Assembly: GCA_003557545.1 (NCBI GenBank)
Contig: PWOD01000087.1
Coordinates: forward strand, 1-15,125
Direction: 5' to 3'
From: a bacterium
Lineage (GTDB): Bacteria; T1Sed10-126
DNA length: 15,125 nt
Each line of letters begins with the position of its first letter. Positions within the stretch are counted from its first letter, which is position 1. Both the position numbers and the translations under genes were made by a program. A model generated the notes under the pieces. It was not told the origin of the DNA and made no database searches. It worked only from the letters and a program-made list of their open reading frames with translations. Below, in pieces: positions 8,837 to 14,123 of the stretch.

Positions 8837-10396
8837 ATGACAACAAATATTTTTATTATGCTGACAATTTTTTTCGCGGCGCTGGTCTTGCTGGTGATTA
8901 CGCTGCTTGTTCTGGAAAACCGGGGAAAACTGCGGGATCTTGAGAGGTTGGATAAGGAGCTTGATAAAAAGCTACAGGAGAACCAGCAAGAGGTTGAAAT
9001 TATAGCTGACGATTCAGCAGAAAGTTCCGAGACTGATGAAGCTAACCAGGCTGAGGGCGAACAGCCTTCGGCCGGTCAACAGCTGAAGGTTGAACATCAG
9101 TTGAAACAGTTGGTTCAGTCCCCGCAGCAGCCTCAAAATCCCCAGCAGACGGAGCTGGAACTTCCCTTTGAACCAATCTATAGTTTTCCGCCTGATCCCC
9201 AGCAGTGGACTGACAGGTACAGGGAGTTAAATCGTTATCCCTGGCCTCAACCTGATGAGGCCGCCCAGGCAGAATATGAAGATCGGGCCGCACCTGATCC
9301 CTCCTCTGAAAAATTTGTTGAGGCAGTTGATTGGCTGACCGAGGCTGGAACTGAGGCGATTCATCGGCAGGAAAAATTCACCAAGTTTTTCAGTTCCTTG
9401 GTTCCCTTTATTGAAGCTCCGCGTGCCGCTGGAGCAGAAGCTGTAGCCCGGGTACCCTGGCGGGGTAAATCGGCTAATATCAGCCGGCTAATAGGTGAAC
9501 GGCTGCTGGTCATGGCAGTTGCATTGAGCAGTTACGGTGCGGTTAAGATGAATTCTCACAAGAAAGCTTTGAAAAATCTACTGGATGGACAGTGGAATGC
9601 TGATGGTCTGGAAACTCCATTGGTTTATCAGGCGATCGGCCGGCTTGGTCTGTTGACCGCCACTGATATGGGTAGTTTTCAGGAAATTTTAAAGACCCAT
9701 CTGATAGCCTGCTCGCCCGATCCGGAGGGGCCCCGGTTAAAACGCCAAGGTCAGGCCCGCTATCATGCGCTGCTGCTGGCCCTTTCTTCCGGACCTGAAT
9801 ATCCGTTTCCTCTGGATGATCAGCAGCGGTCTCGACTCTGGGTGTTTGATGAAGATCGTCCTCCGCTGGCTGTCTGGGAGCATCTATTACCGGTGCTTTA
9901 TACTCTCTGGAACTATCATTGGTCGGCCCGGCAAAATTATCAGGCCACGCGTGATCTTACAGCCCTGCTGGGAGAGTGGTGGGATTCTAATCCTCCGCCT
10001 GAAGATTTTTTCGATGAAAACCCCGGTTACTGGGAAGCGCTTCTGATCTGTGCCTGGGCCTGGACCCCGGAACATCCGGGGATCTGGGGTAGTCTTGAGG
10101 AAAGGTTTGCTCAAATCGATGCTGAAAATCCCTGGTTGCAGGAGGTCACCGACTGTTACCTGGGCTGGGTTGAATATTATCGTGAAAACTCCCGGCGTCC
10201 GGAAGAGTCTTTCCATGGCCATCGGTTCCCACCGCTGGCCTGGATTAAACCTCTGCCCTCCGATCTTATCGAAACGGTTTCGCAGCCCTCCTTTGATTTT
10301 CCTGATAGCTGGCTGGCTGAACTTGGACAGGTGGAATGGCCTGACATCTACAGCCTCGAAAGCTCTTATCAACCTTCGGTTGAGGTTAACCGGTAA
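8837..10396 (+). CDS. Unknown membrane-tethered, Trp-rich protein
   Basis: I do not recognise this 519-residue protein. It has an uncharged N-terminus and one membrane helix (about 5-26). A charged, probably coiled-coil segment (about 28-56) follows, then a Glu/Gln/Pro-rich linker (about 57-110). The rest is a large, probably helical domain (about 155-500) rich in Trp, including a WWD and a WAW. Basic residues just after the helix suggest the bulk is cytoplasmic. No catalytic motif is evident. The ATG at 8837 has AGGGTG (8823-8828) 8 bases upstream, and the membrane helix directly follows, which supports this start. It lies 128 bases after the DUF2851 gene and 34 bases before the next gene. 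A role in a membrane-linked complex with its neighbours is only inference. Confidence 0.7.
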   Translation: MTTNIFIMLTIFFAALVLLVITLLVLENRGKLRDLERLDKELDKKLQENQQEVEIIADDSAESSETDEANQAEGEQPSAGQQLKVEHQLKQLVQSPQQPQNPQQTELELPFEPIYSFPPDPQQWTDRYRELNRYPWPQPDEAAQAEYEDRAAPDPSSEKFVEAVDWLTEAGTEAIHRQEKFTKFFSSLVPFIEAPRAAGAEAVARVPWRGKSANISRLIGERLLVMAVALSSYGAVKMNSHKKALKNLLDGQWNADGLETPLVYQAIGRLGLLTATDMGSFQEILKTHLIACSPDPEGPRLKRQGQARYHALLLALSSGPEYPFPLDDQQRSRLWVFDEDRPPLAVWEHLLPVLYTLWNYHWSARQNYQATRDLTALLGEWWDSNPPPEDFFDENPGYWEALLICAWAWTPEHPGIWGSLEERFAQIDAENPWLQEVTDCYLGWVEYYRENSRRPEESFHGHRFPPLAWIKPLPSDLIETVSQPSFDFPDSWLAELGQVEWPDIYSLESSYQPSVEVNR

Positions 10397-10430
10397 AAAT
10401 TTTTAAATTTAACAGTCAATGGTGGTTTTT

Positions 10431-10955
10431 ATGCAATTAGATTTTGAACTGGCCACACTTCGTGAACAGCCCCTTGGGGCCGCTGAAAAACAGGTTCTTT
10501 CTGAATATTTTCAGCTGGAAGGACGTCGGCAGTTTGAATTATATGGTGGGATCGACTCCTTTGGGATTACAAATACAGTCGGCCTTTATGCTGCATTGAA
10601 TTTTAATTTTAATCTTCTGCAGGAGCTGTCCGATAAACAGCTCACTCTTGAACTGAGCTGTCGAGATCACTGGATCAATCTGATTAAATCGATCCATCGT
10701 GAGTTTTATCGGGGACGACCTAATTTTTACGAGTTGATGTACTGGACCGCCCTGGCTCTGGAAAAACATGCCGTAGTTAAAATAGAAACCGGTCAGGATG
10801 AATATCGCTATCTGCTGCAGGAGATGCAGCGCCGCCAGCTTACCCTGCTGGGCTCGATTCCCGAGGGGCGGATTAAACAGTTTAATCAAAAGCTCCAGCT
10901 GTTCTATCAGTTGCTTGATATTCCCGGTTTAAATACCAGCCTGATTAGAGTTTGA
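10431..10955 (+). CDS. Small unknown protein (174 residues)
   Basis: I do not recognise this protein. It is soluble, with no signal or membrane segment. It appears largely helical, with an aromatic middle (FYRGRPNFYELMYW, about 93-106) and a Gln-rich helical end. I choose the ATG at 10431 because GGTGG (10421-10425) lies 5 bases upstream. An ATG at 10419 would add MVVF but lacks an SD. It sits 34 bases after the Trp-rich membrane protein and 6 bases before the HAD gene, so all are probably co-transcribed. Codon use resembles the neighbours, which argues for a real gene. Confidence 0.65.
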   Translation: MQLDFELATLREQPLGAAEKQVLSEYFQLEGRRQFELYGGIDSFGITNTVGLYAALNFNFNLLQELSDKQLTLELSCRDHWINLIKSIHREFYRGRPNFYELMYWTALALEKHAVVKIETGQDEYRYLLQEMQRRQLTLLGSIPEGRIKQFNQKLQLFYQLLDIPGLNTSLIRV

Positions 10956-10961
10956 TTTTCC

Positions 10962-11678
10962 TTGTCCAGCGGCCTCTCTCCGGTGTTAATCTGTGATCTT
11001 GGTGATACTTTAATAAGACCCTCACCCCCGGTCGAGCAGCAGTATCATTCTGTGGCAGCCCAACTTTTTCCTCATCGTGAACTGCCATCTATTCTTCTTA
11101 TAAAACAGCGTTTCCGGCGGGGGTTTGATCAGCTTTACAGGAGCAGTAAGGGCTGCTGTTTTGGTTCCACCCGGGCTGAGTCTCTGTGGTTCTGGAATAG
11201 AGTCGTGTCCTCTGTGTTTCCGCGGCTGGCCGGTCAGCAATTGACCGATTTTACTGATCGATTATTTGAAAATTTTTCCCGGGCCGAGGCCTGGGAGATT
11301 TTTCCTGATGCCCGGCAGGTTCTGCGGCAGCTGAAACAGGACGGTTGGCAGTTGGTTTTGCTTACCAACTGGGATCTACGAGCCCGGGAGCTGATCGATC
11401 GACTCCGGTTCGGTGAGCTGTTTGAAGGCTATTTTATTTCCAGTGAGGTTGGTTACCATAAACCGGACATCCGGTTGTTTGAGCTGGTATTGGAACAGTT
11501 GGACCAGAGTCCGGAAAGAATCTGGATGATCGGTAATGATCCGGAAGTTGATCTCAAACCTGCGGCTCACCTGGGTCTGCACACAATCTGGTATAACAAT
11601 ACCGGGACTGACACCGACAGCTGGGAGCCCTCTGTTCTTAACTGGCAGCAGGTTGGTCAGTTGTTAGGAAAAACTTAA
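10962..11678 (+). CDS. HAD-family hydrolase with variant motif I
   Basis: A haloacid-dehalogenase superfamily hydrolase of 238 residues, probably a small-molecule phosphatase. Motif I is CDLGDT, with nucleophile Asp12. Position +2 is Gly14 instead of the usual Asp; the Asp comes at +3. Motif II is LTNWD (Thr135), motif III YHKPD (Lys167), and motif IV IGNDPEVD (Asp193, Asp197). A helical cap (about 20-110) fits subfamily I. Variants such as DxGNT and DxYGT occur in dehalogenases and in YihX-like proteins, so activity is possible. The start is uncertain. TTG at 10962 is given because GTG at 10983 would leave almost no residues before motif I; neither has a strong SD. Its stop overlaps the convergent iron-sulfur gene by 4 bases. 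Confidence 0.8.
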   Translation: MSSGLSPVLICDLGDTLIRPSPPVEQQYHSVAAQLFPHRELPSILLIKQRFRRGFDQLYRSSKGCCFGSTRAESLWFWNRVVSSVFPRLAGQQLTDFTDRLFENFSRAEAWEIFPDARQVLRQLKQDGWQLVLLTNWDLRARELIDRLRFGELFEGYFISSEVGYHKPDIRLFELVLEQLDQSPERIWMIGNDPEVDLKPAAHLGLHTIWYNNTGTDTDSWEPSVLNWQQVGQLLGKT

Positions 11679-12394
11679 TTTCTCTCCATTTCTTCCACTG
11701 ATCTGGATTTAATTAAAAACTCTTTCACCCGGCTGATAAGTTCGGTTACATTGATCTCACGGGGACAGACTTCCAGACAGTTATACTCGGTCTCACAGCC
11801 CCAGACTGCCGCGGGACTGTTAAGTTCTTCCAGAACTTTTCTCTGGAGTGGCTCAATCAGCGGAAGATAACGATATAGTTTTATTAGTGAAGCCGGTCCG
11901 CTGAACTGATTGTTTGCCCAGTTGGCCGGACAGGCCGAGTCACAACAACCGCAGAGGTTACAGATCGCCGCTTCACGCATTCGGTCGACCTGCTGTTCGG
12001 TAGGTGGCTCGTGGTTCTTAACCGTTCCCTCCTGCAATATTGTTCGGGCGGTTTTTTCCACAGCTGTCAGATCAACTATCAAATCTTTTTTTACTGGATA
12101 ACCATGAAGGGGTTCCAGGATGATCTTCTCGGGCTCACCCAGATCTTTAATCAGGGTTTTGCAGGCCAGTTGTGGATTGTTGTTGATGATCATGGCATCG
12201 GCTCCACACTGACCGGTTTCACAACTGGCCCGAAAAGCCAGTCCAGAATCAAGCTCCCGCTGGATTGTCAGCAGCCCGTCCAGTACTCGTTCATCCGGTG
12301 CCATCTGGAGCTGGTATTCCTCCCAGTAGGGTTTTATCCCGGCCTCCGGGCAGCCCCGTCGCACTACTATCCTCTGCTCAGTTAAGCTGTTCAT
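11675..12394 (-). CDS. SdhB/FrdB-type iron-sulfur subunit
   Basis: The electron-transfer subunit of a succinate dehydrogenase or fumarate reductase, 239 residues. The N-terminal [2Fe-2S] domain has C58, C63 and C78, with Asp66 where many relatives have the fourth Cys; E. coli SdhB also has Asp there. The C-terminal domain carries C145-x2-C148-x2-C151-x3-C155-Pro, and then C200, C206 and C210-Pro, the ligands of the [4Fe-4S] and [3Fe-4S] centres. All three clusters therefore look intact. Its ATG overlaps the stop of the flavoprotein gene by 4 bases (ATGA), so translation is coupled. No membrane-anchor gene follows; the 3' end meets the convergent HAD gene. Sdh or Frd direction cannot be fixed from this subunit. 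Confidence 0.9.
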   Translation of the reverse strand: MNSLTEQRIVVRRGCPEAGIKPYWEEYQLQMAPDERVLDGLLTIQRELDSGLAFRASCETGQCGADAMIINNNPQLACKTLIKDLGEPEKIILEPLHGYPVKKDLIVDLTAVEKTARTILQEGTVKNHEPPTEQQVDRMREAAICNLCGCCDSACPANWANNQFSGPASLIKLYRYLPLIEPLQRKVLEELNSPAAVWGCETEYNCLEVCPREINVTELISRVKEFLIKSRSVEEMERN

Positions 12395-14097
12395 TCTGTC
12401 TTCACCCGGTCATAAAAAATTTTATTCTGTTGAGCGGCTGTGCCGATAATGCTGTGAGCCTGATAGCGGATATCATTCTGTTCCGGGTGATCAGCTCGGT
12501 AATGGCTGCCCCGACTTTCTTGTCGGGCGAGAGCCGCCCGCCCGGCGAGCCGGCCCAGTCTGAGCATGTTTTTTAGTTCCAGTAGCCGGATTAAATCGAA
12601 TCGATAGCGGCGGTCGGCCTGTAGAGAATCAGTTTTCTGTTTTTCAACCTTCCTGGTAAGCTGATCAATCTCAGCCAGCAGACCGTTTAAACCCTCGGCC
12701 TCTCGCACAATCCCCATCTGTTTGCCAAAAGCTGTCTGTAACTGTTGTCTCCAGCAATCGACCTTGTTGGTGGCAGTGTTAGAAAAACAGAGTTTTTTCA
12801 GGGCCGTCTGCAGCTGGTTTTCCAGATCTTTTGTTGGGAGTTCTGTATGGCTGGTCCGACCGACCATTTTTTCGCCGCTGGTTTTACCCATCACCAGAGT
12901 TTCGGCCAGCGAGTTGGTGCCTAACCGGTTGGCCCCGTGGATCGATAAACAGGCGGTTTCGCCGGCCGCCCAGAGACCGGGGACCGGCTGTTTCTGCCGG
13001 TTGAGAACCTGTCCGGCAAGATTGGTAGGTAATCCACCCATCCAGTAATGGGCGGCTGGCTTAACAGGAATTTGCTGCCGGGCAGGATTGATTTTGAGAT
13101 AATCCCGGCAGGTTGTGTAAACTTCAGGAAGTTGCTGACGGATAAATTTTTCGGAAAGACCGGTTAGATCAAGCCAGACACAGTTATCAGCTGTGTCCCC
13201 CCGGCCCGCCGCTATTTCGCTGGTTATCGCCTGGCTTATCCTGTCCCGCTCGGCGGTATCCAGGTTTTCCGGGTCGTACTGTTGCATGAATCTCTGCTGA
13301 TGTTTGTTTCTTAAAATCCCCCCGGCACTGCGGGCTGCACCGGTAATTAAAATTCCTGAACGAGCCAGGGCCGTCGGATGAAACTGGAAAAATTCAGGAT
13401 CTTTTAGCGGATATCCCGCTTCGACTGCCAGGGCCTGTCCATCGCCGGTACTGGGTAGCGGGTTGGTTGTAAATTCATATAGCTGGCCGGCCCCGCCGGT
13501 GGCCAGTAGCGTGTTGTCTGCTAGAAAAATCAGCGGTTCTCCAGCTGCTATATCCCAGCCAATTACTCCCCTGATCCGTTCTTTGTATCGGATCAGCTGA
13601 ACTGCCGGAGTTTCTTCATAAAATTTTATCGGCTGGTTAAGACAGTGGTCATACAGGGTGTGCAGCAGTAGTTGTCCGGTTCGATCGCCGGCAAAACAGC
13701 TGCGCTGTGCAGGCTTCCCGGAACTTTTTTTGTGCCCGGCAAAAGGCCGTTGGGCAATGTTATTATTTTCGTGGGTAAATGGTAGTCCGCGGCGAGCGAG
13801 CCAGTTGATCTCTTCCGGTATCCGCTGACATAGCTGGTTGACCGCCTTTACATCGGACAGTCCGGCGCCGGCCCGAACTGTATCAGCAGCATGATTTTTT
13901 GGACTGTCCTGGGAAGTTCGATTTAAAACTGCTGCTATTCCTCCGCGGGCTGCCGCTGTGGGGCTTCTCAGGATTGGAACTTTTGAGATTATTCCCACAT
14001 CAACCGCAGCTTTATTTGTTGCAGCCAGTGCTGCTCGTAGCCCTGTGGCACCGCCACCTACTATCAAAATATCGTGGTTGTTAATTCGTGTTTTCAA
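12391..14097 (-). CDS. SdhA/FrdA-type flavoprotein, divergent active site
   Basis: The FAD subunit of a succinate dehydrogenase/fumarate reductase-like enzyme, 568 residues. The FAD-binding GGGATGLRAA (14-23), QFHPTAL (238-244, His240), RD with Arg284, HYWMGG (His350) and GANRLG (Arg391) are kept. These match His232, Arg287, His355 and Arg390 of E. coli FrdA. Three positions differ. The FAD-linking His44 is Pro46 (RSPTAAA), the proton-relay Glu245 is Gly253, and Glu250 is Ala258 (TGAARSAGG). FAD is thus probably non-covalent. The iron-sulfur partner next to it argues against L-aspartate oxidase. The start is TTG with AAGGAG (14110-14105) 7 bases upstream. Succinate oxidation seems unlikely; fumarate reduction or another substrate is possible. 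Confidence 0.85.
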   Translation of the reverse strand: MKTRINNHDILIVGGGATGLRAALAATNKAAVDVGIISKVPILRSPTAAARGGIAAVLNRTSQDSPKNHAADTVRAGAGLSDVKAVNQLCQRIPEEINWLARRGLPFTHENNNIAQRPFAGHKKSSGKPAQRSCFAGDRTGQLLLHTLYDHCLNQPIKFYEETPAVQLIRYKERIRGVIGWDIAAGEPLIFLADNTLLATGGAGQLYEFTTNPLPSTGDGQALAVEAGYPLKDPEFFQFHPTALARSGILITGAARSAGGILRNKHQQRFMQQYDPENLDTAERDRISQAITSEIAAGRGDTADNCVWLDLTGLSEKFIRQQLPEVYTTCRDYLKINPARQQIPVKPAAHYWMGGLPTNLAGQVLNRQKQPVPGLWAAGETACLSIHGANRLGTNSLAETLVMGKTSGEKMVGRTSHTELPTKDLENQLQTALKKLCFSNTATNKVDCWRQQLQTAFGKQMGIVREAEGLNGLLAEIDQLTRKVEKQKTDSLQADRRYRFDLIRLLELKNMLRLGRLAGRAALARQESRGSHYRADHPEQNDIRYQAHSIIGTAAQQNKIFYDRVKTE

Positions 14098-14123
14098 CAG
14101 GTCGCTCCTTAAATCTGAAATAC

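Follow-up and report, generated by a model that had tools for sequence, protein, structure and literature searches.

The window (the whole analysed stretch of 15,125 nt, contig PWOD01000087.1 of assembly GCA_003557545.1) encodes an intact SdhAB pair, the flavoprotein of which has the predicted fold of SDHA and FrdA and carries a set of unusual active-site residues that recurs in a second genus, and no SdhC or CCG-domain match was found in either genome. With a probability of about one half, this SdhAB is a soluble, quinone-independent, one-way reductase of a fumarate-like unsaturated dicarboxylate that binds its FAD non-covalently.

The sdhAB genes

The flavoprotein gene is an intact open reading frame of 568 codons on the minus strand (12391..14097), reading from a TTG start at 14097 to 12391; plus-strand frame 1 across the same interval has stop codons throughout. 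Direct reading places an AAGGAG Shine-Dalgarno sequence 7 nt upstream of the TTG (14105..14110, minus strand). The stop codon of sdhA overlaps the start of sdhB by 4 nt (ATGA), and sdhB (11675..12394, minus strand), which is likewise intact, encodes an SdhB-like iron-sulfur subunit of 239 amino acids that scores 173 bits with TIGR00384, exceeding the cut-off of 88. PF00890 (FAD_binding_2, 334 bits) and PF02910 (Succ_DH_flav_C, 79 bits) span the full length of SdhA, and with TIGR01812 the protein reaches 553.3 bits, which is under the curated cut-off of 567.3, whereas the protein of the sister genome, G001, is over it with 570.4. An AlphaFold model (alignment of 27) has a pTM of 0.88, and its best PDB matches are SDHA and FrdA chains. 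Judged by its sequence, the window flavoprotein is a member of the SdhA/FrdA flavoprotein superfamily, and besides NadB it is the only full-length protein of the SdhA type encoded in its genome, as is the homologue in G001.

Active-site residues

Homologues were taken from 386 genomes sampled across the domain, from 80 named NadB-like loci (mostly of cyanobacteria) and from E. coli. Besides the window protein and its sister, the alignment holds 172 proteins, 83 of the SDH/FRD type and 89 of the NadB type; alignment counts for FrdA include the initiator Met and are one higher than the published numbering. Among the genomes compared, G001 alone is of the same family; it belongs to a different genus, so that the lineage is represented by two sequences.

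In E. coli FrdA the residues that bind fumarate are His232, His355, Arg390 and Thr244, while the hydride comes from N5 of the FAD and the proton from Arg287 (PMC5773532). In the alignment the window protein keeps all of these: His240 (13378..13380, FrdA His232), a ligand of the substrate carboxylate, Thr252 (13342..13344, FrdA Thr244), the substrate ligands His350 (13048..13050, FrdA His355) and Arg391 (12925..12927, FrdA Arg390), and the proton donor Arg284 (13246..13248, FrdA Arg287; role from PMC5773532), and also Arg256 (13330..13332, FrdA Arg248), the outer Arg of the proton relay; all these codons, like those below, lie on the minus strand. A sequence-only reading of this DNA had already listed His240, Arg284, His350 and Arg391 as kept, which the alignment with the E. 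coli proteins bears out, and the motifs that it described, R44-S45-P46-T47 and T252-G253-A254-A255-R256-S257-A258-G-G, are present. Of the SDH-conserved columns, 102 out of 126 are kept.

Several positions deviate. Gly253 (13339..13341) stands where all 172 other homologues have Glu (SdhA Glu255, FrdA Glu245 and NadB Glu260 in E. coli), and the canonical T-E-[GA] Glu next to the substrate Thr is missing in the window and in its sister. Ser257-Ala258 (13324..13329) replaces the Gly-Glu of RGEGG, with Ser-Leu in the sister, in a column that at Ala258 otherwise holds Glu (170 of 172) or Asp (2 of 172). Arg51 (13945..13947) aligns with SdhA Gln50 and FrdA Glu49 and is found only in the window and the sister, the 83 SDH/FRD-type proteins having Gln (67), Glu (15) or Met (1) at this place; PMC10308238, citing Maklashina 2006, presents Gln here as the mark of SQR and Glu as that of QFR. 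Finally, Pro46 (CCC, 13960..13962) occupies the position of the FAD-linking His, which is His in 82 of the 83 SDH/FRD-type proteins and Gln in the remaining one, and the FAD-binding His of the RSHT in the covalent-flavin motif PROSITE PS00504 is missing in the window and kept in the sister. A loss of this His was also seen in another genome (G002, locus L013), where a second SdhA has RSQS, yet a normal TEGARGEGG motif.

The sister protein and phylogenetic placement

The sister SdhA is syntenic and 49% identical; it has Gly253, Ser257, Leu258 and Arg51 and keeps the His46 of RSHT. Gly253 is encoded by GGG in the sister and by GGT in the window, where two bases would have to change to give a Glu codon, whereas the window's CCC for Pro46 differs by a single base from the sister's CAC, and this in a single MAG. 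By this comparison, the remodelling characterizes the lineage as far as it was sampled, with Pro46 a later change of the window only, which suggests that the Glu was lost first and the His later, in one genus. The sequence-only reading had singled out both losses: the Glu losses are solid, being shared by the sister, and the His loss amounts to one base in one genome. Its emphasis on the FAD-linking His was misplaced, as the changes that define the lineage are Gly253, Arg51 and the loss of GEGG, and a loss of the His as the defining trait was rejected on account of the sister. Arg51 itself had escaped it. So had Ala120, Gln142 and Trp352, which the two proteins share, as well as the odd features of SdhB and the apparent lack of an anchor.

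Window and sister share 273 of 559 amino acids, whereas their fourfold degenerate sites are near saturation (61 of 157 identical). Because of this, and of the SDH-conserved columns that are kept, decay of sdhA is unlikely, and the gene is, by these sequence comparisons, under purifying selection.

Window and sister are joined with a support of 100 both in a quick tree (74 proteins) and in a careful one (71), and their branches are long. In the careful tree the pair is, along with NadB, split from all 58 ordinary SDH/FRDs (100/98). A tree had been proposed earlier as a check on an affiliation with ordinary SDHs, and the pair does lie outside them in this tree, but the AU test speaks only marginally against the one alternative placement that was compared, in which the pair is forced beside the FrdA group of the E. 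coli type (p-AU 0.07). That the pair belongs outside the ordinary SDH/FRDs sampled is likely but short of proof.

The iron-sulfur subunit, the anchor and the neighbourhood

The window SdhB keeps the ligands of the 2Fe-2S, the 4Fe-4S and the third cluster, including the Asp that E. coli SdhB also has in its 2Fe-2S site and all seven Cys that serve the other two clusters. In the position of Ile209 of SdhB, which is the open corner of the 3Fe-4S cluster (the third one), the alignment shows Glu203 (11786..11788, minus strand) and in the sister (locus L201, 120-818) an Asp, whereas 44 other SdhBs have no acidic residue there (I, V, L, A, T or Cys, the Cys belonging to WDCxRCxxC-type sequences). A third cluster that is a carboxylate-ligated 4Fe-4S is possible. 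An argument on the quinone site from Trp164 of SdhB was dropped, as this residue varies among ordinary SdhBs.

Sdh_cyt (PF01127, SdhC) and CCG (PF02754) have no match in the window MAG or in G001, both of which are 92-93% complete, whereas in 14 control genomes the same searches gave matches in 11 and 12 cases, respectively. A membrane anchor is thus probably absent, not certainly so, since the MAGs are not complete, the search covered the Sdh_cyt and CCG families, and a divergent SdhC can escape PF01127. Adjacent to sdhAB there is no gene for an anchor (SdhC/D, FrdC/D) or a CCG-type SdhE, none for an electron-donor subunit or for NADH oxidation, and none that hints at a substrate.

G001 shares the gene block ribBA-ribH-...-gmhA-icd-citrate synthase-DUF2851-519 aa-178 aa-sdhB/sdhA-...-AMMECR1. 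Within it, two proteins beside sdhAB are conserved in both genera: one of 178 (window 10419-10955, plus strand) or 174 amino acids (L201 805-1329, minus strand), and one of 519 (window 8837-10396, plus strand) or 512 amino acids (L201 1347-2885, minus strand). The two window proteins have no Pfam or NCBIfam match.

Metabolic context

Both genomes encode fumarase and malic enzyme, and fumarate therefore has another outlet, a point that counts against the proposed reductase. SucCD was not found in either genome, where the sole Ligase_CoA match is FdrA in each case (L213 409-1992, L212 442-1992), and aconitase was not found in the window MAG, even though the window itself contains icd and citrate synthase; G001 has AcnA (L193). 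A normal oxidative role in the TCA cycle was considered and is unlikely in view of the Ligase_CoA search, which gave no SucCD. As for quinone biosynthesis, the UbiA matches are remote. In both genomes a divergent paralogue of Complex1_49kDa (L205 1024-2280, L206 1081-2223) precedes membrane subunits; it lacks the CxxC motifs of a second, hydrogenase-like copy and possibly belongs to an Ehr-like complex.

Proposed mechanism

Electrons would enter from a cytosolic donor, either ferredoxin or an NADH-linked partner, through the iron-sulfur chain of SdhB and end up on an FAD that is bound non-covalently. From this flavin a hydride would go to the substrate, which His240, Thr252, His350 and Arg391 would hold in place, with Arg284 supplying the proton. 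Because the Glu at 253 is gone, Arg284 would have to be re-protonated by water or via Arg256 alone, as has been proposed for urocanate reductase. Another proton route had been put forward before and gains support by analogy, as urocanate reductase also lacks the relay Glu and keeps both Args (PMC7921117).

Two results on other proteins bear on the flavin. Arg287 and Glu245 form the proposed proton route of FrdA, and a change of either abolishes covalent flavinylation (PMC5773532), while the covalent bond shifts the potential of the FAD upward by about 100 mV, and succinate oxidation depends on this bond (PMC10238741). A natural enzyme with Gly in place of this Glu is therefore predicted to be non-covalent and to favour reduction, its low-potential flavin making it run in the reducing direction. 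The earlier suggestion of a non-covalent FAD is thus well supported by analogy: the window protein lacks the His, and E245 mutants of FrdA lose the covalent flavin in spite of having it (PMC5773532). By the same analogy the FAD of the sister is perhaps non-covalent as well, although its kept His suggests that a covalent flavin may persist in part of the lineage.

Arg51 would bring a positive charge close to the flavin and the pocket and, together with Ser257, may admit a bulkier relative of fumarate or one with an extra carboxylate. Because of these two residues, a changed or widened substrate appears about as likely as fumarate itself.

Alternative explanations

The preferred reading, a one-way soluble reductase, has two narrower forms, neither of which is held with confidence. 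The slightly better of them, still tentative, is an ordinary cytosolic AB fumarate reductase with fumarate as its substrate, another proton route and a non-covalent flavin. It fits the complete set of fumarate ligands and the kept proton-donor Arg, the precedent of a cytoplasmic FrdAB (PMC10308238), the fact that each genome has a sole SdhA-like protein besides NadB and a conserved gene neighbourhood that includes icd and citrate synthase; however, it has to accommodate the loss of a Glu that is invariant in 172 SDH, FRD and NadB homologues, and it leaves Arg51 and Ser257 unexplained. The two residues raise the weight of a changed substrate against that of a one-way fumarate reductase, as far as sequence can tell, and the other form, a tentative proposal as well, is a reductase or dehydrogenase that acts on an unsaturated di- or tricarboxylate other than fumarate, in which the loss of the Glu would make room and Arg51 would bind the added group. 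Two of the three positions that distinguish UrdA (Glu to Ala and Gly to Phe) are also changed here (PMC7921117), Arg51 sits at the Gln/Glu position that PMC10308238 links to the substrate direction, and the missing SucCD in both genomes makes a normal oxidative TCA role unlikely. The neighbouring genes, however, give no clue to such a substrate, and the ligand set for fumarate is complete. A wider version, namely a lineage-specific AB member of complex II that acts on another di- or tricarboxylate without relay Glu and covalent flavin, independent of quinone and with a carboxylate-ligated 4Fe-4S as its third cluster, appears rather doubtful.

The loss of a Glu that is invariant elsewhere also speaks against the one-way reductase, as it could mean a slow enzyme or a recruitment to another task. 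That a catalytically weakened SdhA homologue has been kept as a fumarate or succinate sensor or as a scaffold, with its catalytic residues relaxed, is nevertheless improbable: the long branch in the tree and the loss of the Glu, in the window also of the flavin-linking His, would agree with it, but the other catalytic residues and all cluster ligands of SdhB are kept and the gene is under purifying selection. Far less probable still is a sequencing or assembly error behind the odd residues. Pro46, one base from His and seen in one MAG, could be explained in this way, but the open reading frame is intact, and Gly253, Arg51, Ser257 and the loss of Glu258 recur in an independent genome of another genus, so that an artefact was rejected for Gly253 and Arg51 and the error is already refuted for everything except Pro46.

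Significance and comparison with known systems

How the Arg-Glu-Arg relay and the Gln or Glu next to the flavin determine catalysis in complex II has been studied in depth, and crystal structures of E. coli FrdA mutants exist for both positions (E245Q, 5VPN; E49Q, 2B76). A natural AB enzyme from two genera in which both positions are replaced and the ligands are intact offers a direct test of whether fumarate reduction needs the Glu. The sister, with the His kept and the Glu lost, bears on whether the Glu is needed for flavinylation, and the pair together bears on how the family changes its substrate; the order of the residue losses can be tested with the two proteins.

With E. coli FrdA and SdhA (1KF6, 1NEK) the window protein shares the fold, the FAD domain, the ligands His240, Thr252, His350 and Arg391, Arg284 and the AB pairing, whereas it has no covalent His, no Glu245/255, an Arg in place of Glu49/Gln50 and no anchor that could be found; their GEGG is SAGG in the window and SLGG in the sister. 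NadB is not known to have a His-FAD bond either, and Ala76, Ala120 and Trp352 (in PAAHYWMGG) of the window protein are NadB-like. NadB, however, keeps the Glu, has Glu121 where the window protein has Phe119, and lacks an SdhB. An identity as NadB was rejected because of Phe119, a TIGR00551 score of 368.7 bits against a cut-off of 452.8, the adjacent sdhB and a normal NadB that the window genome has elsewhere. TfrAB is a soluble AB fumarate reductase and resembles the window pair in its AB make-up, but it was rejected as well, as a CCG domain is found neither in SdhB nor in the two genomes and the TfrA model gives 396 bits against a cut-off of 718.

UrdA belongs to the flavocytochrome c branch and is not known to have an SdhB partner. 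The UrdA of Shewanella has Ala at the relay Glu, with both Args kept, Phe in place of a conserved Gly adjacent to the relay Arg and a Tyr where the substrate His would be, and takes its protons via a water channel (PMC7921117). The likeness lies in the missing relay Glu, the two kept Args and the changed residue after the relay Arg (PMC7921117), so that two of the three hallmark positions are also changed here (Gly253 and Ser257), where UrdA Phe391 is equated with Ser257 by its place right after UrdA Arg390 (Arg256 of the window protein) and not by alignment. The third hallmark, the Tyr that characterizes urocanate reductases, is absent, as His240 is kept, and the best matches are SDH/FRD. In subunit make-up, by which alone they were compared, a parallel is FrdAB (SDH2) of Pelotomaculum thermopropionicum, an A and B pair without a membrane subunit, which is adjoined by an FrhB-like gene where the window sdhAB is not; cytoplasmic AB-type fumarate reductases without an anchor have been proposed in Pelotomaculum and Syntrophobacter, in Pelotomaculum as NADH-linked (PMC10308238). 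An anchor-less AB pair is thus no novelty as an architecture, and it is the active site that is unusual.
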